Origin: a delta proteobacterium MLS_D
GTDB lineage: Bacteria > Desulfobacterota > Syntrophia > Syntrophales > UBA2210
Length of the DNA: 33,066 bases
Direction: 5' to 3'
Assembly (NCBI GenBank): GCA_002030015.1
Contig: LQBH01000017.1
Coordinates: 1 to 33,066, forward strand
Shown here: positions 5,907-32,426 of the stretch, piece by piece
How the letters are laid out: each line of letters begins with the position of its first letter
Numbering within the stretch: the stretch's first letter is position 1
The notes under the pieces: generated by a model
Seen by the model: only the letters and a program-made list of their open reading frames with translations
Told to the model about the DNA's origin: nothing
Database searches by the model: none
Translations under genes and position numbers: made by a program

Positions 5907-5915
5907 ACTGACATC

Positions 5916-7193
5916 ATGAATATTGTCTTACTTGGAATGAATCATAAATCGGCGCCTCTGGAACTGAGAGAGCGATTGACGATTGCCTGCGGCGAAGAGC
6001 AACAGACCGTCGATCACGTGAAAAGTCTGCCGCAGGTGAAAGAGGCGCTTTACCTGGCGACATGCAACCGCGTCGAAGTGCTCGCGGCCGTGGATAATCC
6101 CGACCGGGCCATGGACCAGCTGAAGGATTTCATCGTGACCCACGGAAACCTGCCGCTGGATGACATGGAGGCCTGTATTTACCGCTATCGTGATGATGAG
6201 GCCGTTCGACACCTGTTCCGGGTGGCCGCAAGTCTCGATTCAATGGTCATGGGCGAGCCGCAGATTCTTGGGCAGGTGAAAGACGCCTACCGGGCGAGCG
6301 TTGAACGGAAGGCGACGGGCGTTCTGTTGAACCGCCTCCTGCACCACGCCTTCCGCGCGGCGAAACGGGTGCGCACAGAAACGGCTATTTCGTCAAACGC
6401 GGTTTCCGTGGGGTATACGGCGGTGACGCTGGCAAAAAAAATTATGGGCGGCCTCGCGGGCAAAACGGTGCTGATCGTCGGTGCCGGCGAAATGGCGGAA
6501 CTCGTCACCCGGCACCTCGTGAAAAACGGCGTGGAATCCATCATCGTGGCGAACAGAACCGTTGAAAACGCCCGGTCTCTCGCGGAGTCCTTCGATGGAC
6601 AGGTTGTCGGGTTCGAGTCGTTGCCCGGCGCCGTGGGCGAGGCGGACATTATAATAACGTCGACGGGGGCTTCAGGGTACGTTATCGACCGCGGCATGAT
6701 CACAGCGGCGCTGAGGCGTCGCCGGAACAGGCTGCTTTTCATGATAGACATCGCCGTTCCCCGGGACATCGATCCAGTCGCGGCAGCGATGGACAACGTG
6801 TATCTTTACAATATCGACGATCTGCAGGCGGTCGTCGATGAAAACCTGAAGACCCGCCACGTGGAGGCTGAACAGGCAGGACGCATCATCGACGAAGAGG
6901 TGGAGAATTTTGAGCGATGGCGGCATTCTCTCGCAGTTGTCCCCGCCATTGTTGATCTCAGAGAAAAAGTTGAGTCGATCACGCGCCGCGAGTTTGACAG
7001 GTGCGGAGGATGGCTGGATGCACTTGGTGAAGAAGACCGGCAAAATGTTGAAATCCTCGTAAACGGAATTATTAATAAAATTTTGCATGAACCGGTGACC
7101 GGGCTCAAGGAAGTCTGCGAGGACGGCGGAGCTGAAGAGTACGTGGCGGCTCTCAGGCGCCTGTTCGGCCTCGAGGACGATTTCCGCCGCTGA
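5916..7193 (+). CDS. hemA: Glutamyl-tRNA reductase
   Basis: HemA reduces glutamyl-tRNA(Glu) to glutamate-1-semialdehyde with NADPH, the first committed step of C5-pathway tetrapyrrole synthesis. The 425-residue length is typical. The catalytic cysteine is residue 50 in LATCNRVEVL. The N-terminal MNHKSAPLELRERL, the signature MGEPQILGQVKDAYR and the NADPH site VLIVGAGEMAELV are all present, followed by the C-terminal helical dimerisation domain. ATG at 5916 begins nine bases after the previous gene; only a weak ribosome site is visible, consistent with translational coupling. The next enzyme of the pathway, HemL, is not in the window. Confidence 0.97.
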   Translation: MNIVLLGMNHKSAPLELRERLTIACGEEQQTVDHVKSLPQVKEALYLATCNRVEVLAAVDNPDRAMDQLKDFIVTHGNLPLDDMEACIYRYRDDEAVRHLFRVAASLDSMVMGEPQILGQVKDAYRASVERKATGVLLNRLLHHAFRAAKRVRTETAISSNAVSVGYTAVTLAKKIMGGLAGKTVLIVGAGEMAELVTRHLVKNGVESIIVANRTVENARSLAESFDGQVVGFESLPGAVGEADIIITSTGASGYVIDRGMITAALRRRRNRLLFMIDIAVPRDIDPVAAAMDNVYLYNIDDLQAVVDENLKTRHVEAEQAGRIIDEEVENFERWRHSLAVVPAIVDLREKVESITRREFDRCGGWLDALGEEDRQNVEILVNGIINKILHEPVTGLKEVCEDGGAEEYVAALRRLFGLEDDFRR

Positions 7194-7218
7194 CGCGTGA
7201 AAAGAAAGGAGTGGATTT

Positions 7219-8136
7219 ATCAAACCGACACTGCGTATAGGGACAAGAGGCAGTGACCTGGCGCTGACGCAGGCGCAGTCCGTCGCCGAACTCCTGAAGA
7301 GAAGAGAAGCCGGACTGTGTTTTGAAATCGTGCCCATACGGACCAGGGCGGACAATATGCAGAACGTGGCCATCGTGGAACTCGGCGGCAAGGGCGTGTT
7401 CGTCAAGGAAATAGAAACTGAACTGTTGAACGGGAGCATTGACATCGCCGTTCACAGCATGAAAGACGTACCCGTCGAGCTGCCGCCGGGGCTGGAAATG
7501 GTCGCCTATCCCGAACGGGAGGATCCGCGTGACGTGCTGGTGACGAGGAATAATGTGAAGTTCGAGGAACTTCGACGCGGAGCACGGATCGGGACGGGTT
7601 CGCTCCGGCGCAGGATGCAGTTGCTCAATGCCATGCCGGATCTGGCGGTTATGCCTCTCAGGGGCAATGTCATGACAAGGATTAAAAAAATTGAAACAGA
7701 CGAACTGGACGGTATCGTCCTCGCGGCGGCGGGCATGCGCCGCATAGGCCTCCAGCACCTGGTCTCGCAATATCTCGATCCCGATCTGATGGTCCCGGCA
7801 GCGGGGCAGGGAGTCCTGGGCATCGAAATACGGGCCGATGACAATGACCTGCGCGAGCGACTGTCCTTTCTCAACCACGAGGAAACGGTCATTGAAATCA
7901 AAGCTGAGAGGTCGTTCCTGAGACGTCTTGGAGGAGGGTGCCAGGTTCCCATAGCGGGGTTTGCCCGTCTCAAGGGGCGGATGCTCAAGATCCGCGGCAT
8001 AGTGGGAACTCCCGACGGCAGAAGGCTCGTCGATGACACCCTTCGAGGCGGCAGGGATGAGGCGGAGAAGCTGGGGGAGGCCCTGGCCGATTCACTTCTT
8101 GACAAGGGCGCCGGGGAAATCCTGGCGATGGAATAG
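7219..8136 (+). CDS. hemC: Porphobilinogen deaminase (hydroxymethylbilane synthase) with apparent ATC start
   Basis: HemC joins four porphobilinogens into hydroxymethylbilane. The reading frame is unambiguous: LRIGTRGSDLALTQAQ near the start, LGGKGVFVKEIE, HSMKDVPVELP, GSLRRRMQL and LGGGCQVPIAG. With translation from 7219 the cofactor-binding Cys is residue 241, matching Cys242 of E. coli. The frame has a stop at 7198-7200 and contains no ATG, GTG or TTG until GTG at 7330, which would remove the conserved TRGS region. ATC at 7219 lies 7 nt after AAAGGAG (7205-7211) and before KPTLRIGT, just where Met is expected. Either the gene uses a rare ATC start or the base is an error for ATG. The product is 305 residues. 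Confidence 0.93.
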   Translation: MKPTLRIGTRGSDLALTQAQSVAELLKRREAGLCFEIVPIRTRADNMQNVAIVELGGKGVFVKEIETELLNGSIDIAVHSMKDVPVELPPGLEMVAYPEREDPRDVLVTRNNVKFEELRRGARIGTGSLRRRMQLLNAMPDLAVMPLRGNVMTRIKKIETDELDGIVLAAAGMRRIGLQHLVSQYLDPDLMVPAAGQGVLGIEIRADDNDLRERLSFLNHEETVIEIKAERSFLRRLGGGCQVPIAGFARLKGRMLKIRGIVGTPDGRRLVDDTLRGGRDEAEKLGEALADSLLDKGAGEILAME

Positions 8137-8179
8137 GTGAACTGCTGAAAAGACGTTCGTCACGGGAGAAGGGCGCGAC

Positions 8180-9700
8180 TTGACGATGAATCGGGAAGGC
8201 AAGGTTTATATAATAGGGGGTGGTCCGGGGGATCCCGAACTTATCACGCTCCGCGGCGCGAGGTGCATGGCGGAAGCGGACCTGGTGGTTTACGATTATC
8301 TGGTCAGCGAGGAACTCCTTGATTACGCGCCGCGGGAAGCGCGGCTGGTGTACGCCGGGAAACGGAGCGGACAACACACGCTGACCCAGGACGAGATCAA
8401 CAGCCTGCTTGTCGACGAGGCGCGGAAAGGGCAGGTGGTGGCCCGTCTCAAGGGCGGAGATCCCTTCATTTTTGGCCGCGGGGGCGAAGAAGCACTGGCC
8501 CTGGCGCGCGCGGGCGTGTCCTTCGAGGTCGTACCGGGAATAAGTTCGGCGGTTGCCGTTCCCTGCTACGCGGGCATTCCCCTGACGCAACGAGAATATA
8601 CCTCCACCGTGGCTTTCATCACGGGACATGAGGATCCGACAAAATCGGAGAGTCGGCTGCACTGGAAACAACTGGCGGCCCTGGAAACACTGGTTTTCCT
8701 CATGGGGGTGAAAAATCTTGCGCTTATAACGGAACAGCTGATTCGGCACGGAAAGGATCCCGCAACTCCGGCGGCTCTGATACGCAGGGGGACGACGCCG
8801 GACCAGGAAACACTGGTGGACAGCCTGGGCTCTATCGCCGAGTCGGCAAAGGCGAGAGGCATGACGCCCCCGGCGGTGTTCGTGGTCGGAGAGGTCGCCG
8901 CGCTGCGGAAAGAGCTTTCCTGGTACGAGAACAAGCCCCTGTTCGGGAAGGGCATCGTCGTTACCCGCCCCCGTGGGCAGGCGGATGAATTTGCTGAACT
9001 GCTCCGTGCGGAAGGAGCGCGGGTGATTCTTTTCCCCGTGATAACGGTGGAGCCGCTGGAGAACACCGCGCCGCTGGACGAGGCACTGGACCGGATCGGC
9101 GAATACCGGTGGCTTATTTTCACCAGCGCGAACAGCGTGAGGTTTTTCTTTCAGCGACTGCGCGACCGCTCAATGGACATCAGGGACATGAAAGGACCGC
9201 GGATCGCCTGTATCGGTCCGGCGACGGCTCAGGCCATACGACGGAAGGGGTTGAACGTGGATATCGTACCGGACGATTACATTTCCGAAGGCGTGATAAA
9301 GGCGTTTGACGGAATCGATCTTGACGGTGCGAAAGTGCTCCTGCCGCGGGCCGAGACGGCACGCGACGTGATTCCGGAAGGACTTGCCGCACGGGGTGCC
9401 TCAGTAGAGGTCGTTCCCCTGTACCGGACGACCGGTTCCGGCAGGGAAGGGGCGGAGCTTATCGCAATGATGGAGGAAGGCCGCGTGGACGTGCTTACCT
9501 TCACAAGTCCTTCTACGGTGAAACACTGCCTGAAAATGATCGGTGGCGTCGAATCGATCCCCGATGCGGTTAAAATCGCCTGTATCGGCCCGGTGACGGC
9601 GGAAGCCGCGAAGAAGGCAGGTCTCGGCGTTGACATCATGCAGGGCCCGTATGATATGAAGGGATTTGTTTCGGCGATAGTGAAAGGAATGACGCACTAA
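8180..9700 (+). CDS. Fusion of uroporphyrinogen-III C-methyltransferase (CobA) and uroporphyrinogen-III synthase (HemD)
   Basis: This 506-residue bifunctional protein closes hydroxymethylbilane to uroporphyrinogen III (HemD half) and methylates it twice with SAM to precorrin-2 (CobA half). Residues about 8-250 are the methyltransferase: VYIIGGGPGDPELITLRG, VARLKGGDPFIFGRGGEE, VPGISSAVAVPCYAGIPLT and MGVKNL. Residues about 260-505 are HemD: GIVVTRPRGQADEFAELL, FTSANSVRFF, IACIGPATAQA and TFTSPSTVKHC. Such fusions are well known in anaerobes. The TTG at 8180 is spaced 7 nt from GAGAAGG; ATG at 8186 is an alternative that loses only two residues. It overlaps the following ATG by one base. It supplies precorrin-2 for siroheme, heme and cobalamin. 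Confidence 0.95.
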   Translation: MTMNREGKVYIIGGGPGDPELITLRGARCMAEADLVVYDYLVSEELLDYAPREARLVYAGKRSGQHTLTQDEINSLLVDEARKGQVVARLKGGDPFIFGRGGEEALALARAGVSFEVVPGISSAVAVPCYAGIPLTQREYTSTVAFITGHEDPTKSESRLHWKQLAALETLVFLMGVKNLALITEQLIRHGKDPATPAALIRRGTTPDQETLVDSLGSIAESAKARGMTPPAVFVVGEVAALRKELSWYENKPLFGKGIVVTRPRGQADEFAELLRAEGARVILFPVITVEPLENTAPLDEALDRIGEYRWLIFTSANSVRFFFQRLRDRSMDIRDMKGPRIACIGPATAQAIRRKGLNVDIVPDDYISEGVIKAFDGIDLDGAKVLLPRAETARDVIPEGLAARGASVEVVPLYRTTGSGREGAELIAMMEEGRVDVLTFTSPSTVKHCLKMIGGVESIPDAVKIACIGPVTAEAAKKAGLGVDIMQGPYDMKGFVSAIVKGMTH

Positions 9701-10887
9701 TGATCGGAATATCGAAACTGTACTGCGGAGGAGTTGAACCATCGGACGTGTTGCGGTACGGAGGCGATTCGAAACGTCTCCCATCGCACCTGCTTCAGTT
9801 TTCGCGCGACAAGCGGCCTGTCGTCGTCTGGAACGTAACCCGGCGGTGTAATCTGAAATGCATTCACTGTTACTCGAATTCGCAGAATATTCAGTACGAC
9901 AATGAATTGACCACTGAACAGGGCATCGCGCTGCTCGACGACCTGGCCGATTACGGGTCGCCCGTGGTGCTTTTTTCAGGCGGGGAACCGTTTACCCGGG
10001 ACGATCTTCCCGAATTGATCAACCACGCGGCCGCGCGGGGCATGCGCGCCGTCATATCGACCAACGGAACACTCATTACCCCCGAGCGGGCCCGGATCTA
10101 TGCCGGCGCCGGACTGTCATACGTGGGCGTGAGTCTTGACGGCATAGGAGATGTTCACGACCGTTTCAGGGGCGTCAGGGGCGCCTTTGACGCGGCCATG
10201 CGGGGAATCAGGAACTGCCGGGAAGCCGGAATCAAGGTAGGCGTCAGGTTCACCCTGACGCGGGCGAACGTGTCGGAGGTACCCGCTATCTTTGACCTGG
10301 TTGAAAAAGAAAACATTCCCCGTATTTGTTTTTATCACCTGGTTTATTCGGGACGCGGCTCGGAGCTGGTGAAAGAAGACCTGACGCATGAAGAAACGCG
10401 GCGCACGGTTGATCTCATCATGGAAAGAACGCGGTTGCTGTTCGACAGGGGAATACCGACTGAAGTGCTCACCGTGGACAACCACGCCGACGGTCCATAC
10501 GTGTACCTGCGGCTGCTGCGGGAAAATCCGGAACGGGCGGCGGAAGTCATGGAACTTCTCCGCATGAACGAGGGAAACAGTTCGGGGCGCGGCATCGGAT
10601 GTGTCAGCTGGGATGGCGACGTTCACCCTGACCAGTTCTGGCGCGACATCGTTTTCGGAAACGTAAAGGACCGGCCTTTCAGTGAAATCTGGGAAGACAG
10701 GTCGAACGATCTGCTGATGAAACTGAAGGACAAGAAGCCGTACCTGAAGGGTCGTTGCGCTACCTGCCGATGGCTTGATGTCTGCGGCGGTAATTTCAGG
10801 GCGCGGGCTGAGGCGGTAACGGGCGATATATGGCAGCCGGACCCCGCCTGCTACCTGACGGACGAAGAAATCCGCGAGGAGGAGTGA
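9700..10887 (+). CDS. ahbC: AhbC: radical SAM didecarboxysiroheme deacetylase
   Basis: AhbC converts 12,18-didecarboxysiroheme to Fe-coproporphyrin III by removing two acetate side chains, the second step of the alternative heme pathway. The 395-residue protein has the radical SAM cluster at Cys50, Cys54 and Cys57 (RRCNLKCIHCYSN), then the SAM-binding FSGGEP. A C-terminal SPASM-type cysteine region (GIGCVSWDGD, GRCATCRWLDVCGGN, DPACYL) binds an auxiliary cluster. The assignment over other SPASM proteins relies on family resemblance and on the operon, which also encodes AhbD and a siroheme decarboxylase subunit. The ATG at 9700 shares a base with the preceding stop. Confidence 0.93.
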   Translation: MIGISKLYCGGVEPSDVLRYGGDSKRLPSHLLQFSRDKRPVVVWNVTRRCNLKCIHCYSNSQNIQYDNELTTEQGIALLDDLADYGSPVVLFSGGEPFTRDDLPELINHAAARGMRAVISTNGTLITPERARIYAGAGLSYVGVSLDGIGDVHDRFRGVRGAFDAAMRGIRNCREAGIKVGVRFTLTRANVSEVPAIFDLVEKENIPRICFYHLVYSGRGSELVKEDLTHEETRRTVDLIMERTRLLFDRGIPTEVLTVDNHADGPYVYLRLLRENPERAAEVMELLRMNEGNSSGRGIGCVSWDGDVHPDQFWRDIVFGNVKDRPFSEIWEDRSNDLLMKLKDKKPYLKGRCATCRWLDVCGGNFRARAEAVTGDIWQPDPACYLTDEEIREEE

Positions 10888-10889
10888 TC

Positions 10890-11864
10890 ATGCAATATCC
10901 CGAATACAGGCCCCGGCGGCTGAGGGCGAGCGAAACAATGCGCCGGTTGACGGCTGAAACAAAATTATCCGTTGATTCCCTTGTATGCCCGCTTTTCGTC
11001 GTGGAAGGCGAAAAGGTAAAAAAACCTGTTTCCTCAATGCAGGGGTGGTTCCAGTTATCCATCGATTATGCCGTGAAGGAAGTCAGGTCGATCCGCGACC
11101 TGGGCATACCGGCGGTTTTGCTTTTCGGCGTTCCCGATAAGAAGGATGAGCTCGCAAGCGGCGCTTTCGCTGCCGACGGTATCATTCAGCGGGCCGTGGC
11201 GGCGATAAAAAAAGAAGTTCCCGATATCATCATCATTACCGATGTGTGTCTCTGTGAATATACCAGTCACGGGCACTGCGGCATGCTCGACGGCGAAATC
11301 GTTGACAACGACTCAACCATACAGGTTCTTGGTGAAACAGCACTCTCGCACGCGAAGGCGGGCGCCGACATGGTGGCGCCGTCGGCCATGATGGACGGCC
11401 AGGTGCTCGCATTACGTGAAACCCTTGACGAGGCCGGATACGAGTCCATTCCCATCATGGCGTATTCCGCGAAGTACGCGTCCGCTTTTTACGGTCCCTT
11501 CCGGGAAGCGGCTGAAAGCGCTCCGAGTTTCGGAGACCGCAAATCCTACCAGATGAATCCGGCCAACAGCGACGAGGCCGTGCGGGAAATGACCCTGGAC
11601 GTGGCTGAAGGCGCCGATATTCTCATGGTAAAGCCGGCGCTCCCCTACCTCGACGTTATCCGCAGGGCGAAGGAGGAATTCGACCTGCCGCTGGCCGCCT
11701 ACAACGTAAGCGGCGAATATGCCATGATAAAAGCGGCTGCCGCAATGGGATGGCTCGACGGCGAGCAGGCCATGATGGAATCCCTGCTCGCGATCAGGCG
11801 AGCGGGAGCGGACATCATTATAACCTACTTTGCCCGTGAAGCGGCGGCGCTTCTGGCGCGGTGA
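10890..11864 (+). CDS. hemB: Delta-aminolevulinic acid dehydratase (porphobilinogen synthase)
   Basis: HemB condenses two 5-aminolevulinates to porphobilinogen. The 324-residue sequence carries both active-site lysines, Lys195 (MAYSAKYASAFYGPFREA) and Lys248 (MVKPALPYLDV). It has the three zinc cysteines Cys120, Cys122 and Cys130 (DVCLCEYTSHGHCGML), positions that coincide with the E. coli numbering, so this is the zinc-dependent type. ATG at 10890 follows GAGGAGGAG closely and begins two bases after ahbC. The frame is open further upstream into ahbC, but the family N-terminus starts here. Its position between ahbC and ahbD shows that early and late steps share a transcript. Confidence 0.97.
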   Translation: MQYPEYRPRRLRASETMRRLTAETKLSVDSLVCPLFVVEGEKVKKPVSSMQGWFQLSIDYAVKEVRSIRDLGIPAVLLFGVPDKKDELASGAFAADGIIQRAVAAIKKEVPDIIIITDVCLCEYTSHGHCGMLDGEIVDNDSTIQVLGETALSHAKAGADMVAPSAMMDGQVLALRETLDEAGYESIPIMAYSAKYASAFYGPFREAAESAPSFGDRKSYQMNPANSDEAVREMTLDVAEGADILMVKPALPYLDVIRRAKEEFDLPLAAYNVSGEYAMIKAAAAMGWLDGEQAMMESLLAIRRAGADIIITYFAREAAALLAR

Positions 11865-11882
11865 GGCGAGGGCGGTGAAACA

Positions 11883-12965
11883 ATGACGACGGCAAGATCC
11901 TCGATGAAACTTCCCGCCGATCTTCGCATGATAGCCTGGGAAATAACCCGCAGTTGCAACCTCAATTGCATTCATTGCCGCGCGGCTTCGCAATACGGTC
12001 CTTATGAGGGCGAGTATTCCACCGAACGCTGCGTTTCCCTGCTTGATGAGATAGCCGAGGTCGGGCACCCCGTGATTATTCTTACCGGTGGTGAACCCTA
12101 TATGCGCGATGATATTTTTCATGTCGCCGCCGAGGGGGACCGTCGCGGGTTCCGTATGGTGCTGGCGACGAACGGAACCCTGGTGACAGGTGAGACGGCT
12201 GAGAGAACAAAGCGGGCCGGCATCAAGCGGGTCAGCGTCAGTCTGGATGGTCCGGACGCCGCTGGTCACGATCTCTTCCGTGGTGTTTCCGGCGCATTTA
12301 AGGGCGCACTTGAAGGAATTGAGGCATTCCGGCGAGCCGGCGTTGAGTTCCAAATAAACACCACCATCACGGAAACGAACAGAAACGACCTTCCGAGAAT
12401 CATGGATCTGGCCGTCCGTCTCGGTGCGGCGGCACATCATATTTTTCTTCTCGTTCCCACCGGACGGGCACGGGACATGGCGCATCAGGCGATCGGCGCG
12501 GCGGAATATGAAGAAACGCTGACATGGTTTCACGAGCAGACGCGGACCAGCACGATGCAGCTAAAGGCCACCTGCGCGCCGCAATATTATCGAATTTACC
12601 ACCAGGACAAGAGAAAAAACGCGGGTGGTAACCAAAACGACGCCGGAGGACTGCACAGCATGACGCGGGGTTGCATGGGCGGCAGTTCATTCTGTTTCAT
12701 TTCGCACCGCGGGCAGGTCCAGCCCTGTGGTTTTCTGGAACTGGACTGCGGACAACTGAATGAGAAGTCCTTCAGGGATATCTGGGAACATTCAAAGGTT
12801 TTTAACGATCTCAGGGATCTTTCGCTGTACAAGGGGAAGTGTGGGCGCTGCGAGTTCCTCAAGGTCTGCGGCGGCTGCAGGGCAAGGGCGTACGAGGCGA
12901 CGGGCGATTACCTGGAAGAGGAGCCGCTTTGCGCGTGGATACCGGCGGGCGACAGGGATCTTTGA
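11883..12965 (+). CDS. ahbD: AhbD: radical SAM heme b synthase
   Basis: AhbD oxidatively decarboxylates the two propionates of Fe-coproporphyrin III to the vinyl groups of heme b, the last step of the Ahb pathway. The 360-residue protein has Cys25, Cys29 and Cys32 in TRSCNLNCIHCRAASQYGP, then TGGEPYMRDD. A cysteine-rich C-terminal half (TRGCMGGSSFC, QPCGFLELDC, GKCGRCEFLKVCGGC, PLCAW) would hold one or two auxiliary clusters. It is about 35 residues shorter than AhbC of the same operon and clearly paralogous to it. GGTGA precedes the ATG. Its stop overlaps the next start (TGATG). Confidence 0.93.
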   Translation: MTTARSSMKLPADLRMIAWEITRSCNLNCIHCRAASQYGPYEGEYSTERCVSLLDEIAEVGHPVIILTGGEPYMRDDIFHVAAEGDRRGFRMVLATNGTLVTGETAERTKRAGIKRVSVSLDGPDAAGHDLFRGVSGAFKGALEGIEAFRRAGVEFQINTTITETNRNDLPRIMDLAVRLGAAAHHIFLLVPTGRARDMAHQAIGAAEYEETLTWFHEQTRTSTMQLKATCAPQYYRIYHQDKRKNAGGNQNDAGGLHSMTRGCMGGSSFCFISHRGQVQPCGFLELDCGQLNEKSFRDIWEHSKVFNDLRDLSLYKGKCGRCEFLKVCGGCRARAYEATGDYLEEEPLCAWIPAGDRDL

Positions 12966-13411
12966 TGGATGACCTGGATAAGTCCATATTGACCATTCTG
13001 CAGCGGGATTTCCCGTTGGAAAAACATCCCTTCGACGTGGTGGGTGAAAGACTGGGTGTCACCGGTGACGAGGTTCGCCGCCGTGCCGCAAGAATGAAGA
13101 AAGAGGGACTAATACGAAGGATCGGCGGCGTGTTCGACAGGGAAGCCCTGGGCTGGTCGGGGACGCTCTGCGCGGCCCGCGTGCCGGAGGATCGTCTGGA
13201 CGATTTCGTCTCGGCAGTCAACGCCCTTCCGGGGGTGACTCACAATTACAGAAGAAACCACGAATACAATGTATGGTTCACGCTTCTCGCGCCTTCGCGG
13301 GAAGAAATTGATGCGATACTGGACTCGATTCGCCGGCAAACCGGCGTTGACGACATCGTTGACATGCGGGCCGTTCGAACTTTTAAAATAAACGCGACAT
13401 TTAACCTGTAA
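12965..13411 (+). CDS. Siroheme decarboxylase subunit (AhbA/AhbB type, Lrp/AsnC-like)
   Basis: AhbA and AhbB together decarboxylate siroheme to 12,18-didecarboxysiroheme, the first step of the Ahb pathway. This 148-residue protein has an N-terminal AsnC-type winged-helix region (residues about 1-60, LDKSILTILQRDFPLEKHPF, then EEVRR-like helix and KEGLIRRIGGVFD). A ligand domain follows, with the family signature THNYRRNHEYNVWFTLL near residues 95-111. Only one such gene is present; the usual partner is not found in the window. Either the partner is elsewhere or the enzyme is a homodimer. I cannot decide between AhbA and AhbB by eye. Despite the DNA-binding fold, the operon context argues for an enzyme rather than a regulator. 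Confidence 0.88.
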   Translation: MDDLDKSILTILQRDFPLEKHPFDVVGERLGVTGDEVRRRAARMKKEGLIRRIGGVFDREALGWSGTLCAARVPEDRLDDFVSAVNALPGVTHNYRRNHEYNVWFTLLAPSREEIDAILDSIRRQTGVDDIVDMRAVRTFKINATFNL

Positions 13412-25019: not shown

Positions 25020-25850
25020 ATGGAACGACTTTTTAAAGCCGTGATGTTCTGCATGGCGATTGCTGTGCTCGGAATGGTCTTCTACGCTGTGGCCTGGCCT
25101 GTAGCAGGTAAAGAATCGGCGCGACATTCCCGTGGCGCCGGAGATAGTATCAATGAACCGCGGGTGGACGCCGTCAGCGAGTCCGTACAAGCCGGTCAGA
25201 ATAACACGGTGTCTCAAACCTCCGGGACCGGCTCCAGTAATGAAAAGCCCCGCGTCATGGTTCGGCAGGGGGGAGATTCCCCGGGTTCGTATACCAAGCT
25301 GGGACACGGGGGCGCGGAACTTCCCGAAACGGCCGATCATATAGATGACGGAGGCCCGTGGCTTATGACCCGTGACAACAAGACGGGATTGATCTGGGAA
25401 GTCAAAAGCGGGTTACCGGGACTCCGTTTCAAGGGGAATACCTATACCTGGTACGACCCCGACCCGGATTCGAACGGGGGGCAATCCGGCACGCAGAACG
25501 GCGGTTGCTGTGACGGATCGTCATGCGACACGGGTTCTTTCCTTCAGGCTGTAAACAAGATGGAATTCGGGGGATTTTCCGACTGGCGATTGCCCAATGT
25601 AAGGGAGCTCGGGTCGCTCGTTAACAGTGAAACCTATAATCCTTCCATAGATACCGCCTGGTTTCCCAACACGGTTCCGAACGGGTACTGGACGTCCACC
25701 ACCTATGTCCTGGACAAAGATCTTGCCTGGGTGGTGCCCTTTTATCACGGCCTGGTAAATTACTGCGGGAACAAGTCCGGCTGTTTCCATGTGCGCGCCG
25801 TCAGGAAAGAGACGGGCAAGGCTGTAGCATACATGATACCGAATAAATAA
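25020..25850 (+). CDS. Exported DUF1566 (Lcl C-terminal domain) protein, first of a tandem pair
   Basis: The 276-residue protein starts with a basic end and a hydrophobic segment (AVMFCMAIAVLGMVFYAVAW), a signal peptide or membrane anchor. A polar linker of about 60 residues is followed by a DUF1566 domain from about residue 90: LGHGGAELPETADHIDDGG, MTRDNKTGLIWEVKSG, FGGFSDWRLPNVRELGSLVN and a closing CFHVRAVRK. DUF1566 is a C-type-lectin-like fold found on many secreted bacterial proteins; its ligand is unknown. Cysteines in NGGCCDGSSCDTG and NYCGNKSGCFHV could form disulfides outside the cytoplasm. ATG at 25020 follows CGGGGGATAA. It is paralogous to the next gene. Confidence 0.85.
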   Translation: MERLFKAVMFCMAIAVLGMVFYAVAWPVAGKESARHSRGAGDSINEPRVDAVSESVQAGQNNTVSQTSGTGSSNEKPRVMVRQGGDSPGSYTKLGHGGAELPETADHIDDGGPWLMTRDNKTGLIWEVKSGLPGLRFKGNTYTWYDPDPDSNGGQSGTQNGGCCDGSSCDTGSFLQAVNKMEFGGFSDWRLPNVRELGSLVNSETYNPSIDTAWFPNTVPNGYWTSTTYVLDKDLAWVVPFYHGLVNYCGNKSGCFHVRAVRKETGKAVAYMIPNK

Positions 25851-25860
25851 AATAATGAAG

Positions 25861-25889
25861 GTTCCGCCGCCGCTTTCGGACGGTGGAAC
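25861..25889 (+). terminator. Stem-loop after the first DUF1566 gene
   Basis: GTTCCGCCG (25861-25869) pairs with CGGTGGAAC (25881-25889), with one G-U, 11 bp after the stop codon. No T tract follows, so it may be an mRNA-stabilising hairpin or weak terminator rather than a standard intrinsic terminator. Confidence 0.4.
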
Positions 25890-26056
25890 GGGGGCTGAGC
25901 GGATCGAGCCGTCGGGACCGTGGAGTTCAGTTTCATCGCCTGTACGGCGGTCACGGCAATGAGAAATGCCAGACAGTTCATATTTCATATCGTGTTCCGG
26001 TCATAGTTAACCATAGGTTTTTCCGGGCACCGGTGAGGGCAAGGATCTATTACAAT

Positions 26057-27223
26057 ATGTTTTTGAAAGGACCAGATAATGTCGCGTTGATTCGCTTGAT
26101 AACGTTTGTTCTGTTTTTGAATCTCGGCATGCTTCCGGCGCCTCATCCGAGTGCCGCACAGAATGAATATCTGCATGATGATACCCGGTATGTTCCTTCT
26201 CCGCCGTCATACACCAAGCTCGGTCACGGCGGAGAAGAATTACCCGACGGGGCCCGGCACGTGGATGAAGACGGTCTCTGGATTATGACGAGAGACAATG
26301 TTACCGGGCTGATCTGGGAATTGAAAACGGGTACCCCCGGTCCTCGGCATAACGGGAATACATACTCCTGGTTCGATCCCAATCCTGATACCAACGGCGG
26401 TCATGAAGGTACGCGGAACGGCGGTGACTGCACGGGAAGCCCCTGTGATACCCATTCCTATATTCAGGCACTGAACGTCAAAAATTTCGGCGGGTATTTC
26501 GACTGGCGCCTTCCAAATGTCAGGGATCTGTCGACGCTTCTCAAGAGCGGCGACAATCCGGCTGTTCACATGGAATGGTTCCCCTACGTCTCTTCAAATC
26601 GTTACTACTGGTCATCAATGACCTGCAATGGCAACAGTTACGGGGCATGGCGCGTCAGCATGGAAGGGGGTGTCAACAAGGACTTCAAGTCCCACAGTTA
26701 CTACGTGATTGCCGTAAGGGAGGGAAATCTCGATATTATCTCCCCGGAAAGGGGGGCGGTCTTACCCCTCGGCGATGTCGTGAAAGTAACCTGGGAAACA
26801 CGGAATATTTCCGGTAAGGTCCGTCTGTCTCTTTCCCGGATGGCGGGTGCTGAAGAGACTTTCGAAATTATCAGCGCGGCTGCTGAAAACAGCGGTTCTT
26901 TCGAATGGAAGGTTACGGGACCCGGTTCAGCCTGGTGCGTACTCAGAATAGAGCCCCTGTCTAATCCTTTGCGTGGACAATCATTCGGGTATTTTATTAT
27001 TCCTTTTACATTGAAGTACCGGGCAGGCGAAAACGGTTCGATAAAGGGGAACGAGGTACAGATCGTTGAGCCGGGAGGAGAAGGCGCCCCTGTTGAAGCC
27101 GTGCCGAAAGAAGGGTATCGCTTTCTGAAGTGGAGCGACAGTCTACGGGACAATCCCCGTATCGACGTGAACGTGCAACGGGAACTCGAGGTGGAAGCGA
27201 TATTCGCCGCTGAGCAATCGTAG
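26057..27223 (+). CDS. Exported DUF1566 protein with extra C-terminal domains, second of a tandem pair
   Basis: From ATG at 26057 (AAGGAT upstream) this is 388 residues with a signal peptide (LIRLITFVLFLNLGMLPAPH, cleavage likely after PSAAQ). The frame is open upstream to 25883 but that part lacks any protein character. The DUF1566 domain (about 50-225) follows the neighbour almost block for block: LGHGGEELPDGARHVDEDG, MTRDNVTGLIWELKTG, FGGYFDWRLPNVRDLSTLL. Beyond it are two segments the first gene lacks: a beta-rich unit (SPERGAVLPLGDVVKVTWET) resembling Ig-like or Kre9/KNH domains, and a last unit (RAGENGSIKGNEVQIVEPGG, then GYRFLKWSD) like InlB-type bacterial repeats. It is probably a cell-surface or periplasmic protein; function unknown. 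Confidence 0.85.
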   Translation: MFLKGPDNVALIRLITFVLFLNLGMLPAPHPSAAQNEYLHDDTRYVPSPPSYTKLGHGGEELPDGARHVDEDGLWIMTRDNVTGLIWELKTGTPGPRHNGNTYSWFDPNPDTNGGHEGTRNGGDCTGSPCDTHSYIQALNVKNFGGYFDWRLPNVRDLSTLLKSGDNPAVHMEWFPYVSSNRYYWSSMTCNGNSYGAWRVSMEGGVNKDFKSHSYYVIAVREGNLDIISPERGAVLPLGDVVKVTWETRNISGKVRLSLSRMAGAEETFEIISAAAENSGSFEWKVTGPGSAWCVLRIEPLSNPLRGQSFGYFIIPFTLKYRAGENGSIKGNEVQIVEPGGEGAPVEAVPKEGYRFLKWSDSLRDNPRIDVNVQRELEVEAIFAAEQS

Positions 27224-28013: not shown

Positions 28014-28042
28014 TTGACCCATCTATAAAAAGAACATATACT
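28014..28042 (+). promoter_or_regulatory. Predicted promoter of the redox gene run
   Basis: TTGACC (28014-28019) and TATACT (28037-28042) are separated by exactly 17 bp; five of six bases match in each box. The start would be near 28049, giving a leader of about 55 nt. That leader contains ACGGTA (28056-28061) and TACCGT (28073-28078), an exact 6-bp inverted repeat that could be an operator or small hairpin. Confidence 0.65.
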
Positions 28043-28103: not shown

Positions 28104-28595
28104 ATGCATCTGCGAAATGTGCTGGCGGCATGTGTTTTGTTTTTTTTCTTTGTTTGTCCGGCTGTGGTGGATGCCGAGGCTTCGCGGAGCAATGTCGTCG
28201 CCATCGACGCGCCCGGCGTTGAGCAGCTGACAAGGGAAGAAAACTGTCCGATATTCATCTCGATTATGACATCCCGTTGCGCGGCATGCCGAAGCGAGTT
28301 GACCGCTTACCAGGAGATGTACGAAAAGTACGGTGACGAGGGACTCGGTATTTTCGTGGTAAGTATTGATTTCGGTACGTCGGAGGAAATCCAGAACCTT
28401 GTCGACCAGTTGGGAGTGACGTTCCCGGTATACTGGGGCGGCGAGAAGGTCATGAGGGCATTTAATATTTCTTATGTCCCCTATAAAATAATTGTTTCAA
28501 ACGGAAGGGTTCTCGAAAAGCAGATCGGCGGCTGGAAATCAACGGATGAATTCGAGACAAAAATCAACGAACTTTTCGATGCCTGTGGACGGTAA
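28104..28595 (+). CDS. Exported TlpA-like thioredoxin-fold protein
   Basis: The 163-residue protein has a signal peptide (LRNVLAACVLFFFFVCPAVV, cleavage near VDA) and a thioredoxin fold with active site Cys59-Ala-Ala-Cys62 (TSRCAACRSEL). It continues with IFVVSIDFGTSEEIQNLVDQ and the cis-proline loop YVPYKIIV, as in TlpA/ResA-like disulfide reductases and peroxiredoxin relatives. It should act outside the cytoplasm on protein thiols or a small oxidant. ATG at 28104 is preferred over ATG at 28101 because of spacing from GAGAGGG (28092-28098). It is first gene of a seven-gene run and partly precedes a small CxxC membrane protein, a combination suggesting thiol electron transfer. Confidence 0.87.
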   Translation: MHLRNVLAACVLFFFFVCPAVVDAEASRSNVVAIDAPGVEQLTREENCPIFISIMTSRCAACRSELTAYQEMYEKYGDEGLGIFVVSIDFGTSEEIQNLVDQLGVTFPVYWGGEKVMRAFNISYVPYKIIVSNGRVLEKQIGGWKSTDEFETKINELFDACGR

Positions 28596-28626
28596 ATCCT
28601 TGCGGGGCAGCGAAGAGGTGGGCGAT

Positions 28627-28770
28627 GTGGAAACAAAAGGCGGCCTGATTCCATATTTGATGGTTATCCTGTTTCTCCTGATTCTGGTTGCGGGCGTCAA
28701 TGCGGGAGAAGTCTCGGCGGTCTGGGAGAAGGCGATCACGATTTGCCTGAGCTGCATGGGCGTAGGCTGA
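28627..28770 (+). CDS. Tiny CD1871A-like CxxC membrane protein, 47 residues
   Basis: This small protein has one membrane span (LIPYLMVILFLLILVAGV) and a conserved tail AGEVSAVWEKAITICLSCMG with a CxxC pair. The layout and the tail (GEV..V..KA..ICL.C.G.G) match the CD1871A family of CxxC-containing small proteins known from clostridia, where they neighbour polyferredoxin and thioredoxin-like genes. GTG at 28627 is chosen because AGAGG lies 8 nt upstream and the family is about this size; ATG at 28579, overlapping the previous gene, would give 63 residues. Its stop codon overlaps the next ATG. It may relay electrons or thiol equivalents between the thioredoxin-like protein and the polyferredoxin. 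Confidence 0.75.
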   Translation: METKGGLIPYLMVILFLLILVAGVNAGEVSAVWEKAITICLSCMGVG

Positions 28771-29666
28771 TGATCGATATCAGGCGTCTCATACAGGCAG
28801 TCTCGGTTTTGCTGTGTAACGCCTGGATGCTTTTCCCGTTTACAAAAAACATTTACCAGGGAAAACTAAAAAGCATCTGTGTCCCCGGGCTTAATTGTTA
28901 TTCCTGCCCGGCGGCGACAGGCGCCTGTCCCCTGGGGTCTCTTCAGACTTTTTTCGCGGGGATCCGGCCGTCCTTCAGAGCGGGGTCGTACCACGTCGGG
29001 CTGTATGTGGTCGGTATGCTCGGTCTTATCGGCGGCCTCGTAGGCCGCATGCCCTGTGCCTGGGTGTGTCCCTTCGGGTTTATGCAAGAGTTGATTTACA
29101 AGATTCCCTCGCAAAAAATTGAAATTCCCCGTTGTCTTTCATGGGTGAAATATGGTGTTCTTGCCCTGTTCATCATAGTATTTCCTCTTATGATCGTTGA
29201 TGCTTTCGGATACGGAGAAAACTGGTTCTGCAAGTACATCTGTCCTGCGGGTACACTGGAGGCAGGACTCCCGCTTTCATTCCTGCAGCCGCACTTGCGG
29301 GAACTCTGGGGGACGCTCTTTTACGGCAAACTGGCAATACTGGTTTTACTTCTTGTTCTCATGGTATATACACGACGGCCTTTTTGCAGAGTCCTCTGCC
29401 CGCTGGGAGCCATTTATTCGCTCTTCAACAAGGTAAGCGTGTTCCGGATGGTGCATTACCCTGATCGTTGCGTTCGGTGCGGCGAATGCTACCGGAACTG
29501 TCCAATGGGGATCAAGTTTTACGAAGGGGCGAACCAGAGTGATTGTATCCGATGTCTCCAATGCCTGAGAAAATCGTGCAAGTACGGCGCCATCGGTTTT
29601 ACCATAAACGGTGTAGCGACAATAATACCGGGACCGGAGGAGAAGACGGAGGCGGGGTCCGGCTGA
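28770..29666 (+). CDS. NapH/YccM-like membrane polyferredoxin
   Basis: The 298-residue integral membrane protein has about five membrane spans and repeated cysteine motifs: CVPGLNCYSCPAATGACPLG, CAWVCPFG, CKYICPAG and CRVLCPLG, the CxxxCP pattern of the NapH/NosR/RnfD-associated family. Two [4Fe-4S] ferredoxin motifs follow near the C-terminus (CVRCGECYRNCP and CIRCLQCLRKSCKYG). Family members pass electrons across or along the membrane from quinol or ferredoxin to exported acceptors. The start is ATG at 28770, overlapping the stop of the small CxxC gene, so translation is coupled. The end user of the electrons is not identified; the thioredoxin-like protein is a reasonable candidate. Confidence 0.88.
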   Translation: MIDIRRLIQAVSVLLCNAWMLFPFTKNIYQGKLKSICVPGLNCYSCPAATGACPLGSLQTFFAGIRPSFRAGSYHVGLYVVGMLGLIGGLVGRMPCAWVCPFGFMQELIYKIPSQKIEIPRCLSWVKYGVLALFIIVFPLMIVDAFGYGENWFCKYICPAGTLEAGLPLSFLQPHLRELWGTLFYGKLAILVLLLVLMVYTRRPFCRVLCPLGAIYSLFNKVSVFRMVHYPDRCVRCGECYRNCPMGIKFYEGANQSDCIRCLQCLRKSCKYGAIGFTINGVATIIPGPEEKTEAGSG

Positions 29667-29693
29667 AAAATGGAAATGTAAAGGGGGGATTCG

Positions 29694-30689
29694 GTGTCAC
29701 GGCTGACGAGAAGAAATTTTTTGCAGGTATCGGCGGGGCTGGTGGCTCTTTCAGGTGTCGCCGCAACGCCGTCGACGGCTGAGACTTCACTCGACGAAGA
29801 AACGCTGGCGACGCTTATTGATTGTACCAGGTGCGACGGGTGCGTTGATTACGATGTTCCTCTCTGCGTAGCAGCATGCAGGGAGCGTGCACTGAGCCGG
29901 ATTCCCGATCCCGTTAATCCGATTCCGCCGTTGTTCCCGCGCGGCATGATCGAAGACTGGTCTACACGAAAGGACGTGTACGACCGGCTGACCCCCTACA
30001 CGCAGTTGTTTGTTCAGCGGGCGGACATTCCCGAGGATGGGGGAATCCGCACCGTGTACCTGCCGAGACGGTGCATGCACTGCGACAACCCTCCATGCGC
30101 GACACTCTGTCCATTCACGGCTAATCACAAGTATCCAGACGGTTCGGTCGTCATCGATCCCGACCTTTGTTTCGGCGGCGCCAAGTGCCGCAGTGTCTGT
30201 CCCTGGAGCATTCCGCAACGCCAGTCGGGCGTGGGGATATATCTCGAAATCATGCCCACGCTCGCCGGAAACGGCGTGATGTTCAAATGCGATTTGTGTC
30301 ACGACCGGCTTTTAAACAAGCAGCTGCCGCTTTGCGTCGAGGCATGTCCCAGGGACGCTATGGTAATAGGTCTGCGACGCGACATAATTAAAGAAGCGGA
30401 ACGAAGAGCGGCGGCGACCGGCGGATATCTTTACGGGTTAACTGAAAACGGAGGCACGGGGACTATTTATCTTTCGCCGGTTCCCTTCGAGGAAATAAAC
30501 AAGGTAGTGGAAAAAGGCCCCGGACGTCCTCATTTCGACAAGGTGAGCCGTCGTCCGGCGCGTGCGTCGCTCATGGAAACGTCGGTTCTCATGTCGCCTG
30601 TAATCGGCATGGGAGCCGGTCTGACCGCCGCCATGCTCGCCGTGCGAAATCGCGGGATAAAAAAGGGGGGAGGCGAAAGCGATGACTGA
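29694..30689 (+). CDS. Tat-exported multi-cluster [4Fe-4S] ferredoxin-like electron-transfer subunit
   Basis: The 331-residue protein begins with a twin-arginine signal (SRLTRRNFLQVSAGLVALSG) and should be periplasmic. Four cysteine groups follow: CTRCDGCVDYDVPLCVAAC, CMHCDNPPCATLCP, CFGGAKCRSVCP and CDLCHDRLLNKQLPLCVEAC. This is the arrangement of the beta subunits of formate dehydrogenase-N and related complexes. A hydrophobic C-terminal span (VLMSPVIGMGAGLTAAMLAV) would anchor it beside the cytochrome b encoded next. GTG at 29694 follows AAGGGGGG closely. No molybdopterin catalytic subunit is adjacent, so it is either an orphan electron-transfer pair or works with a partner encoded elsewhere. 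It overlaps the next gene by eight bases. Confidence 0.88.
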   Translation: MSRLTRRNFLQVSAGLVALSGVAATPSTAETSLDEETLATLIDCTRCDGCVDYDVPLCVAACRERALSRIPDPVNPIPPLFPRGMIEDWSTRKDVYDRLTPYTQLFVQRADIPEDGGIRTVYLPRRCMHCDNPPCATLCPFTANHKYPDGSVVIDPDLCFGGAKCRSVCPWSIPQRQSGVGIYLEIMPTLAGNGVMFKCDLCHDRLLNKQLPLCVEACPRDAMVIGLRRDIIKEAERRAAATGGYLYGLTENGGTGTIYLSPVPFEEINKVVEKGPGRPHFDKVSRRPARASLMETSVLMSPVIGMGAGLTAAMLAVRNRGIKKGGGESDD

Positions 30690-31506
30690 TCATGTTAGTG
30701 AAGGAAAAAACCTGGTCAGGCGTCACAGCGTGCTGGAACTCGTCGAGCATTGGGCGATCGCGCTGTCAGGTCTTTTGCTTATTCTGACGGGTCTTCTGGA
30801 GCTTCCTATCGGAAAGCGTTATTATGTTACCGAAATACCGGGATTTTCATGGTCTGGCGATTTTTACACGACCCTTACCATTCACTACATAGCCGCTGTT
30901 GTGTTCATTGTCGCAGCGTTCTTCCATGTTTTTTACCACGGTCTCTTGGGCGAAGGAGGGATGTTGCCGAGGCGGGGGGATTTGAAGGAGTCCGTCGGAG
31001 TAATAAAAACATTTTTCGGCAAGGGAGATGAACCGCCCTTTGAAAAATATCTTCCCGAACAGAGGCTGGCCTATGCGGGCATGGCCGTTATCATTGCCAT
31101 GCTCATTATTTCGGGATTGGTGAAAACATACAAAAATCTCCTGGATCCGCAACTTTCTCACACGGTCACGATGGCGGCTACCTGGATTCATAATATTTTC
31201 TTCGTGCTGTTCGTGGCGGCCGTTATCGCCCACATAGCGGCACTTGTTATCAAACCGAACCGGCCGATGATACGAGGAATTTTCACCGGTACCGTCAGGC
31301 TCGATTATGCGAGGAGAAGACATCCCCTCTGGATGGCTGGCCTGGAAAGGACAAAAACGCCGTCAGCTGACGGCAGGGGGTGGGTTGGTGGCGAGGTTGC
31401 CGGATCAGGTGCGGGGGCAGACGGGAATGTATCGTCAGGGGAAAAACCGGATCCGGAACATGTCGCCGGTTCCGAAAGAGCCAACGACAAAAAGGAGGAA
31501 TCGTAA
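30682..31506 (+). CDS. Membrane cytochrome b, formate-dehydrogenase gamma-like
   Basis: The 274-residue protein has four predicted membrane spans with histidines placed as in di-heme cytochrome b subunits: LELVEHWAIALSGLLL, TIHYIAAVVFIVAAFFHVFY, and WIHNIFFVLFVAAVIAHIAA. It would oxidise or reduce menaquinol and exchange electrons with the preceding Tat-exported iron-sulfur protein, with which it overlaps. The last 50 residues (after PLWMAGLERTKTP) are a Gly/Ser/Asp-rich polar tail, probably disordered and not typical of the family. Its stop codon overlaps the ATG of the superoxide dismutase gene. Confidence 0.87.
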   Translation: MTDHVSEGKNLVRRHSVLELVEHWAIALSGLLLILTGLLELPIGKRYYVTEIPGFSWSGDFYTTLTIHYIAAVVFIVAAFFHVFYHGLLGEGGMLPRRGDLKESVGVIKTFFGKGDEPPFEKYLPEQRLAYAGMAVIIAMLIISGLVKTYKNLLDPQLSHTVTMAATWIHNIFFVLFVAAVIAHIAALVIKPNRPMIRGIFTGTVRLDYARRRHPLWMAGLERTKTPSADGRGWVGGEVAGSGAGADGNVSSGEKPDPEHVAGSERANDKKEES

Positions 31507-32102
31507 TGAGCGTCAAACGGTGGGAACTGCCCTACGAGAAAAATGCACTGGAACCCTTTATAAGCAGACGGACGATCGAGTTTCATTATGACAAGCACCA
31601 TGCTGCCTACGAAGCAAAAGCTAATGAACTGCTTGAAGGAACGTTCCTGCAGGATGAACCGCTTGAAACAATAATGAGAATGACCGTTGAGGACCCGACC
31701 CGTGCCGTGCTCTTTAATAATGCGGCTCAGGTATGGAACCACAGTTTTTTCTGGCGTTGCATGAAACCTGGCGGGGGAGGTGTTCCCGGAGGGCACATCG
31801 CCGAATTGATAGACGAATCCTTCGGCGGATTCGAACCCTTCGTGGAACAGTTCACGAGTGAGTCACTGGCCCGCTTTGGAAGCGGTTGGGCGTGGCTGGT
31901 CATGCGTGACGAAAAACTCAAAATCATGACGACGGCCAACGCCGATTCGCCCGTGGCGCGGGGCATTCACACCCTGTTTACGGTAGACCTCTGGGAACAT
32001 GCCTATTACCTGGATTATCAGAACAGGCGGGGAGATTATCTGGACGCCCTGTTGCGTAACCTCGTTGACTGGGATTTTGTCAGCGGCCGCCTTGGCGGAT
32101 AA
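31506..32102 (+). CDS. sodB: Superoxide dismutase, iron type
   Basis: The 198-residue enzyme converts superoxide to hydrogen peroxide and oxygen. The metal ligands are visible: His in RTIEFHYDKHHAAY, His in NNAAQVWNHSFFW, and Asp and His in FTVDLWEHAYYLDYQNRRGDY. The Gln in NNAAQVWNH is at the position usual for iron enzymes. There is no signal peptide, so it is cytoplasmic. ATG at 31506 follows AAGGAGG and shares a base with the stop of the cytochrome b gene, so an otherwise membrane-redox transcript ends with a superoxide defence enzyme. Confidence 0.96.
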   Translation: MSVKRWELPYEKNALEPFISRRTIEFHYDKHHAAYEAKANELLEGTFLQDEPLETIMRMTVEDPTRAVLFNNAAQVWNHSFFWRCMKPGGGGVPGGHIAELIDESFGGFEPFVEQFTSESLARFGSGWAWLVMRDEKLKIMTTANADSPVARGIHTLFTVDLWEHAYYLDYQNRRGDYLDALLRNLVDWDFVSGRLGG

Positions 32103-32168
32103 GGGGATCTGGCAAGGACTGAATAATAGACAACAGGACGATGGATAAGACGAAGAGGTACGAGCAGT

Positions 32169-32426
32169 ATGCGCGAAAATAAAAAACCGGCCGTGGATTA
32201 CCCCTGTGACTGGGTATACACGGTTATCGGAACCAACAGGAATGCGCTTCACGAGGCCGTTGAAGACGTGTTCCGGGAACGGTCGTGCAGCGTGGTCTTG
32301 TCGAGAACCAGTGCGGCGGGAACCTATTGTTCATTACGCGTTGAAGCCGAAGTATTCAGCGATGATGATCGAACCAACCTGTTCGAGCGCCTGAGTGCAC
32401 AGGATGATATCAGGATAGTCCTGTAG
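32169..32426 (+). CDS. DUF493 (YbeD-like) protein
   Basis: The 85-residue protein matches the DUF493 family: an ACT-like alpha/beta fold with an N-terminal PCDWVYTVIGTNRNALHEAV and VFRERSCSVVLSRTSAAGTY, then a strand-rich middle and a C-terminal DDIRIVL. In E. coli YbeD lies next to lipB, but its function is not established. Here it follows sodB by 66 bp, with GAGG before the ATG. It probably belongs to the same transcript, which then ends at the hairpin at 32493-32523. Confidence 0.8.
   Translation: MRENKKPAVDYPCDWVYTVIGTNRNALHEAVEDVFRERSCSVVLSRTSAAGTYCSLRVEAEVFSDDDRTNLFERLSAQDDIRIVL

Follow-up and report, generated by a model that had tools for sequence, protein, structure and literature searches.

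Organisation and conservation of the locus

The analysed window, a stretch of 33,066 nucleotides from the delta proteobacterium MLS_D, carries seven genes on the + strand between positions 28104 and 32426 that are joined by tiny gaps or overlaps. The first gene (28104..28595, +) encodes a TlpA/ResA-like exported thioredoxin with the active site RCAAC and the conserved cysteines C48, C59, C62 and C161. It is followed by a CD1871A-family mini-protein (28579..28770, +), which has one transmembrane (TM) helix and the C-terminal sequence CLSCMGVG, and by a NapH-type membrane polyferredoxin (28770..29666, +) with four TM helices and a C-terminal ferredoxin domain. The next two genes encode a HybA/HmcB/FdnH-like ferredoxin with a Tat signal and a C-terminal anchor (29694..30689, +) and an FdnI-like b-type cytochrome (30682..31506, +) with conserved His23, His68, His170 and His184. 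An Fe-type superoxide dismutase (SOD; 31506..32102, +), identified by its Sod_Fe_N and Sod_Fe_C domains (Sod_Fe_C 6e-35), and a protein matching the DUF493/HP0495 family (32169..32426, +) complete the run.

The thioredoxin gene stops at 28593-28595 and the start of the mini-protein is uncertain (28579, 28600 or 28627); depending on this start, the junction ranges from a 17 bp overlap to a 31 bp gap. Further downstream, the mini-protein and polyferredoxin genes overlap by 1 bp (28770), a 27 bp gap precedes the Tat ferredoxin (29694), the latter overlaps the cytochrome b gene (30682) by 8 bp, cytochrome b and SOD (31506) share 1 bp, and 66 bp separate SOD from DUF493 (32169). Upstream of the first gene lies a sigma-70-type promoter, TTGACC-N17-TATACT (28014..28042, +), with 10/12 consensus matches. 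By consensus scan alone this site is weak, as 10 sites were found versus 4.4 expected. Four species share the -35 element TTGACCC and the spacing without variation, and one of them has an otherwise unrelated upstream flank. Together with the junctions, this invariance bears out the co-directional, close-packed run behind a promoter that the earlier note had described from the MLS_D sequence.

A search for the same gene order in other genomes, suggested in that note, showed that the order is not unique to MLS_D. G106, G052 and G126 have all seven genes in this order, with about 50-95% identity and rearranged upstream flanks, and in G022 the order is kept up to the contig end. The seven genes are a real operon, common to four species that belong to a single genus of uncultured anaerobes. 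SOD is part of the unit, and SOD and DUF493 are joined to the run only in this genus. The operon is assembled from two older parts that are found apart elsewhere: a thiol module formed by the first three genes and the pair of Tat ferredoxin and cytochrome b.

The thiol module and its relation to CcdA

The first three genes had been likened to a clostridial module of thiol and iron-sulfur proteins, and this assignment is confirmed by domain searches. The thioredoxin matches AhpC-TSA with 33 bits (gathering cutoff 26), the mini-protein with its C-terminal CXXC matches the CD1871A model NF040920 with 36.1 bits (curated cutoff 32), and the polyferredoxin matches Fer4_5 (PF12801, 4e-21) with 75.2 bits (gathering cutoff 22). 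With the NapH/MauN model TIGR02163, the polyferredoxin reaches 60.4 bits and stays below the cutoff of 213. Charges around the helix of the mini-protein (+2.8 before, 0.1 after) place the CXXC outside according to the positive-inside rule, and the Cys motifs of the polyferredoxin are located in loops predicted on both membrane faces. No solved structure covers the membrane part of this protein, and its AlphaFold model (pLDDT 39) is too poor for use.

The class has 13 genomes with the mini-protein, and these are also the ones with the polyferredoxin. Among 80 named polyferredoxin loci, 79 mini-proteins were found, and 77 of these 79 carry the CXXC five residues from the C-terminal end; a TlpA-like thioredoxin is encoded near the polyferredoxin in 38/80 loci. 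Its active site is W/FCxPC in most cases. The WCxPC motif is missing in MLS_D (RCAAC) and in three genus mates (RCGAC), and this change to RC[AG]AC may reflect an altered, less reducing role of the thioredoxin in this genus. In some loci the module thioredoxin is fused to a rhodanese-like domain. A fusion with methionine sulfoxide reductase, suspected from long open reading frames, was ruled out by the sequences, two of which show the rhodanese-like domains.

The three proteins constitute a widespread, uncharacterised module of anaerobes. Both the score above cutoff and the same neighbour connect it to the CD1871A CXXC protein with its 4Fe-4S protein (NF040920); a literature search found no published function for the CD1871A family, and the C. 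difficile matches for this name were a conjugative transposon gene and an ABC permease instead. NapH-like transmembrane iron-sulfur systems (NapH, NosR, PceC) have been surveyed (PMC8238504). These systems likewise use a Fer4_5 membrane ferredoxin with CX3CP motifs for transmembrane electron transfer (PMC8238504), but the partner in the module is a CXXC mini-protein plus thioredoxin and not an FMN-binding domain or a nitrate, nitrous oxide or dehalogenase enzyme.

Within the class, housekeeping CcdA (PF02683) is present in 0/13 module genomes versus 120/141 others (Fisher p 3.5e-10), a count in which the genomes are not independent and the signal corresponds to perhaps two to four switches. 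The same exclusion was observed in the family of MLS_D (0/9 module genomes versus 8/10 others) and inside one genus, where G021 and G058 carry the module and G029, G098, G101 and G152 carry CcdA. According to the domain search, PF02683 is absent from all seven proteins and from the MLS_D genome. Weak PF02683 matches were examined in two module genomes, that of L061 and G021, and belong to arsenic-type clusters. In the class, a TlpA-like gene almost invariably comes after CcdA, and at the syntenic site TIGR02757-MKLDxW-(CcdA-TlpA)-PaaK this pair is found in G066 and G091 and missing from the module genomes G023 and G037. From the exclusion and the missing pair we infer a CcdA-like function: in this class, the module appears to replace CcdA for the transfer of reducing power across the membrane. 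Like CcdA/DsbD with TlpA/ResA, it would supply an exported TlpA-like thioredoxin with reducing power from the cytosol, but with a polyferredoxin and a separate CXXC mini-protein in place of a six-TM thiol relay. This replacement may be lineage-specific, because the anti-correlation is weak at phylum scale (6/36 module genomes versus 78/261 others, p 0.12) and in Clostridia (any PF02683, 11/30 versus 84/162, p 0.16); canonical CcdA occurs in some module genomes of other groups. Many anaerobes lack housekeeping CcdA/DsbD and the upkeep of their reduced exported thiols is unexplained. The exclusion pattern and the locus-level switch inside one genus make the three-gene module a concrete and widespread candidate for this task.

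The Tat ferredoxin and cytochrome b pair

The Tat ferredoxin (Fer4_11/Fer4_7, HmcB/HybA-like matches) and the cytochrome b (Ni_hydr_CYTB) resemble the four-cluster ferredoxin and diheme cytochrome b of FdnHI, HybA, HmcB and NarHI. Unlike these systems, the pair lacks a catalytic subunit, as noted earlier for MLS_D: no FdnGHI-type molybdopterin subunit is adjacent to the MLS_D pair, and the other loci that were read have no catalytic subunit beside it either. In the order, 90/155 genomes carry the pair, as do 61/297 in the phylum, and no constant neighbour was found in about 40 loci. The pair is an orphan quinone/ferredoxin unit that occurs across the phylum and can be recognised by its cluster motif. 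The Tat ferredoxin has 15/16 cluster cysteines of HybA/HmcB/FdnH, with Gly at the second group III Cys (CFGGAKC). Nearly all pair members share this Gly, where NarH has Trp and FdnH and HybA have Cys. Since Gly occupies the NarH-Trp position and leaves three cluster ligands by sequence, the pair is likely a [3Fe-4S]-like, quinone-linked shuttle. An AlphaFold model of the Tat ferredoxin (pLDDT 51) is too poor for use. In G044 and G142 the pair also adjoins CcdA, a second and different link to a thiol unit.

A catalytic partner elsewhere in the genome had been named as an observation that would speak against a common pathway. MLS_D has a complete formate dehydrogenase (contig C8, with an in-frame TGA), but this enzyme comes with beta and gamma subunits of its own, so such a partner was not found in this simple form, and the pair as the missing half of the formate dehydrogenase was rejected.

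Proposed function and alternative readings

It seems probable, if only just, that the run is a genus-specific operon of a CcdA/DsbD-like first unit, a separate shuttle as second unit and a cytosolic SOD. In the first unit, the C-terminal clusters of the polyferredoxin would take up electrons of low potential, for which cytosolic ferredoxin is the likeliest source, and its Cys motifs on both faces would relay them through the membrane. The C-terminal CXXC of the mini-protein (45-60 residues) would receive them outside and reduce the exported thioredoxin, which in turn would keep exported thiols reduced, for example those of apocytochrome c or damaged proteins. The second unit would act as a shuttle that links the menaquinone pool to a periplasmic partner whose gene lies elsewhere, and the cluster beside its heme would probably be [3Fe-4S]-like and of high potential. 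One promoter would transcribe both units and SOD, probably for oxidant handling. In this scheme, the genes with their order and conservation, the conserved ligands and the exclusion with CcdA in the class are observed, whereas the direction of electron flow, its donors and acceptors, the type of cluster and the role in stress are deduced. The more general formulation, that strict anaerobes possess a second, iron-sulfur replacement of CcdA/DsbD which carries ferredoxin electrons from polyferredoxin via CXXC to exported thioredoxin and is wired here to the pair and SOD, is offered more tentatively.

The oxygen-tolerance role suggested earlier for the whole run gained no clear support outside the genus: oxygen-defence genes lie near the pair in 5/48 loci there, a share that does not clearly exceed the control values of 4/80 for polyferredoxin loci and 2/23 for CcdA loci. 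Judged from the SOD, co-regulation of the operon for oxidative stress is plausible.

A different target of the second unit is a possibility of some weight, though we would not favour it. The pair might form the quinone-facing end of a molybdoenzyme, a hydrogenase or a cytochrome in the periplasm whose catalytic part is encoded elsewhere, and the neighbourhood of the pair would then reflect co-regulation only. The HybA/FdnH homology is in line with this, as are multiheme cytochromes near the pair in L140 and L244, but both the lack of a constant neighbour and the completeness of the formate dehydrogenase count against it. This reading can be combined with the first unit as a CcdA substitute and differs from our favoured explanation only in the target of the second unit.

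The single seven-part membrane pathway of the earlier note is unlikely. Here, electrons from menaquinol or ferredoxin would pass through cytochrome b and Tat ferredoxin to polyferredoxin, CXXC and thioredoxin, in a NapH to NapG-like manner, and detoxify outside oxidants. The conserved order in four species, the NapH-like polyferredoxin next to a HybA-like Tat ferredoxin and a thioredoxin active site that is altered only where both units are joined would fit such a route. However, module and pair each occur without the other in most genomes and show no positive association at phylum scale, where the pair is present in 3/36 module genomes versus 58/261 others. The run is neither a single known nor a universal pathway, and its units are independent outside the genus. 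Additionally, the potential of menaquinol is too high for the reduction of TlpA-type thioredoxins. Judged by midpoint potentials, the direction from menaquinol to thiols is uphill, making this route, also proposed earlier, thermodynamically unlikely.

Reverse flow in this genus would run downhill; we regard it as quite improbable. In a VKOR/DsbB-like manner, the RCAAC thioredoxin and CXXC would oxidise thiols or form disulfides and pass electrons via the polyferredoxin and the pair to menaquinone. A thioredoxin active site without Trp and Pro is expected to be less reducing, and a quinone-type cytochrome adjoins the module here; on the other hand, the rest of the module family has WCxPC-type thioredoxins with no quinone protein beside them, and CcdA, with which the module shows exclusion throughout the class, is a reducing system, which speaks for the opposite direction. 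A chance cluster held by drift without functional coupling would explain the restriction of the order to one genus but is very unlikely given the translational overlaps, the conserved promoter and a block that stays intact between rearranged flanks at 50-70% protein identity.

The seven-gene run and its two units

The earlier note described a co-directional, tightly spaced run of seven genes, which was borne out by gene coordinates and domain searches. The run lies on the forward strand at 28104-32426 of the window, its junctions range from -8 to +66 bp (the start of the mini-protein is uncertain), and all seven assignments were upheld: exported thioredoxin, CXXC mini-protein, polyferredoxin, Tat ferredoxin, cytochrome b, Fe-SOD and DUF493. 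The promoter, called good in that note, was unremarkable in a consensus scan, yet three genus mates, one of them with otherwise unrelated upstream sequence, retain TTGACCC, the -10 element and the spacing of 17 bases. A search of other genomes, as proposed there, found the identical order in G106, G052 and G126 of the same genus, and G022 matches over the part its contig covers. Proteins of G052 and G126 are about 50-73% identical to those of the window (mini-protein up to 78%). At this level of identity the upstream flanks differ (one genome has DUF1566-like genes there, the other DNA polymerase I), so the block has been retained as a unit. By reading, 25020-27223 of the window encodes two exported proteins in tandem whose sequences are DUF1566-like, and relatives are also found upstream of the run in locus L018.

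Outside the genus, the block splits and is thus a composite. Thioredoxin, CXXC mini-protein and polyferredoxin (the module) stand by themselves in further genera of the family, in a second family, and also in 80 named loci of Desulfobacterota, Clostridia, Acidobacteriota and others. In up to 6 kb of flanking sequence, no Tat ferredoxin, cytochrome or SOD was found at any of these 80 loci. The cytochrome b is present in 90 of 155 genomes of the class Syntrophia; for the Tat ferredoxin, the count is 61 of 297 genomes of the phylum. In the loci read, the two form a unit of two genes. SOD, of which one copy only was found in the genome, has other neighbours elsewhere and no DUF493 alongside. The proposed single-pathway reading was partly right: the genes form one block, but the units occur separately outside the genus. 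Among the rows compared, the thioredoxin active site RC[AG]AC was observed only where the units are joined, with mostly W/FCxPC otherwise. This change points to an altered redox potential or partner, and it is the best hint that the joining is functional.

The thioredoxin-CXXC-polyferredoxin module and CcdA

In the class, 13 genomes have the CXXC family, and exactly these 13 have the polyferredoxin. In a PF02683 search, housekeeping CcdA was found in none of these, seven giving no match and six a weak match only; the two weak matches that were read (G021 and the genome of locus L061) are part of arsenic-type clusters that have small thioredoxins of their own. A strong match was observed in 120 of the 141 other class genomes (p 3.5e-10 against module carriers, without tree correction), and the housekeeping CcdA of the class has, in nearly all cases, a TlpA-like thioredoxin following it. 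At the shared site TIGR02757-MKLDxW-...-PaaK, CcdA-TlpA follows MKLDxW in G066 and G091 but is missing from G023 and G037, which carry the module. Genus g2 has the module in two members and CcdA in four. In the polyferredoxin tree (moderate support), its copies group with those of genus g3, which is compatible with horizontal transfer; G062 is set apart. Across the phylum the exclusion is weak, with 6/36 against 78/261 (p 0.12), and likewise in Clostridia, where the figures are 11/30 against 84/162 (p 0.16, the baseline of 84/162 including module carriers).

It is likely that the module substitutes for CcdA, which is the strongest new claim of this analysis and of which no report was found in the literature searched. 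We infer the electron direction and the donor; ferredoxin is favoured as donor, because menaquinol is a much weaker reductant than thioredoxins of this type. A survey of extracytosolic systems covers NapH-like and DsbD-like kinds, and the passages of it that were consulted do not describe the combination seen here (PMC8238504).

Charge predicts an outside location for the CXXC of the mini-protein, whose sequence is basic (+2.8) ahead of the single helix and neutral (0.1) behind it. This motif lies almost at the C-terminus, from which its distance is constant in 77 of 79 sequences. By hydropathy, the polyferredoxin of the window has four helices (in the other rows shown, three exceed the threshold). 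Loops on each of the two predicted faces carry cysteine motifs, and the C-terminal ferredoxin domain is predicted to lie on the inner side, which is basic. Reading of other loci revealed module thioredoxins fused to a rhodanese-like domain (L132 4893-5822, L139 4414-5355), hinting at sulfur-related substrates. In Desulfobulbaceae-type loci (L067-L096), a UPF0045-like gene and a conserved secreted SH3-like protein flank the module, also by reading.

The Tat ferredoxin-cytochrome b pair

The Tat ferredoxin and cytochrome b are predicted to be an orphan quinone-type shuttle. That the pair lacks a molybdopterin catalytic subunit, as noted earlier, held: no catalytic gene adjoins it in the loci read, and the formate dehydrogenase of the genome is complete elsewhere (FdnGHI, L028 4854-9406 on contig C8) with its own beta and gamma subunits and an in-frame TGA read as selenocysteine U186. 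Of the 16 cluster cysteines of FdnH/HybA, 15 are present in the Tat ferredoxin. The one lost is the second cysteine of group III, a position with glycine here (CFGGAKC), cysteine in FdnH and HybA, and tryptophan in NarH. In NarH, the site with tryptophan holds a [3Fe-4S] cluster adjoining heme. The aligned class members have CFGGAKC; of the phylum members read, nearly all have CxGGxKC, the exception being one second copy in L233. The heme-ligand candidates of the cytochrome (His 23, 68, 170 and 184) are all kept. Two sister genera carry, by reading, a cytochrome b with a C-terminal alpha/beta-hydrolase-like domain (533-547 residues; L140 4632-6275, L141 194-1795).

Control of the pair varies, since CsoR-family repressors (PF02583) lie directly upstream in several genomes (L144, L147, L150, L152, L157 and L231) and, by sequence reading, CRP/FNR-like genes in others. 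Some of the repressors have Cys-His-Cys and others Tyr in place of His; therefore, both metal and persulfide types may occur. A second arrangement links the pair to a thiol unit: CcdA comes after it in G044, and CcdA and TlpA in G142. In G037 the pair lies near cytochrome bd, rubrerythrin and redoxin genes; genes of these types are not clearly enriched near the pair overall.

Other features of the window

A cluster for the siroheme-dependent heme b pathway was identified at 4399-13411 by profile tests, with HemC, HemB and the regulator assigned by reading. It comprises a CysG N-terminal domain, a CcsB-like protein (170.5 bits, just below the cutoff of 187.6), HemA, the HemC region, a CobA-HemD fusion, AhbC, HemB, AhbD and an AhbA/B-like regulator. 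An ISNCY-family transposase is encoded at 394-1563 (337 bits).
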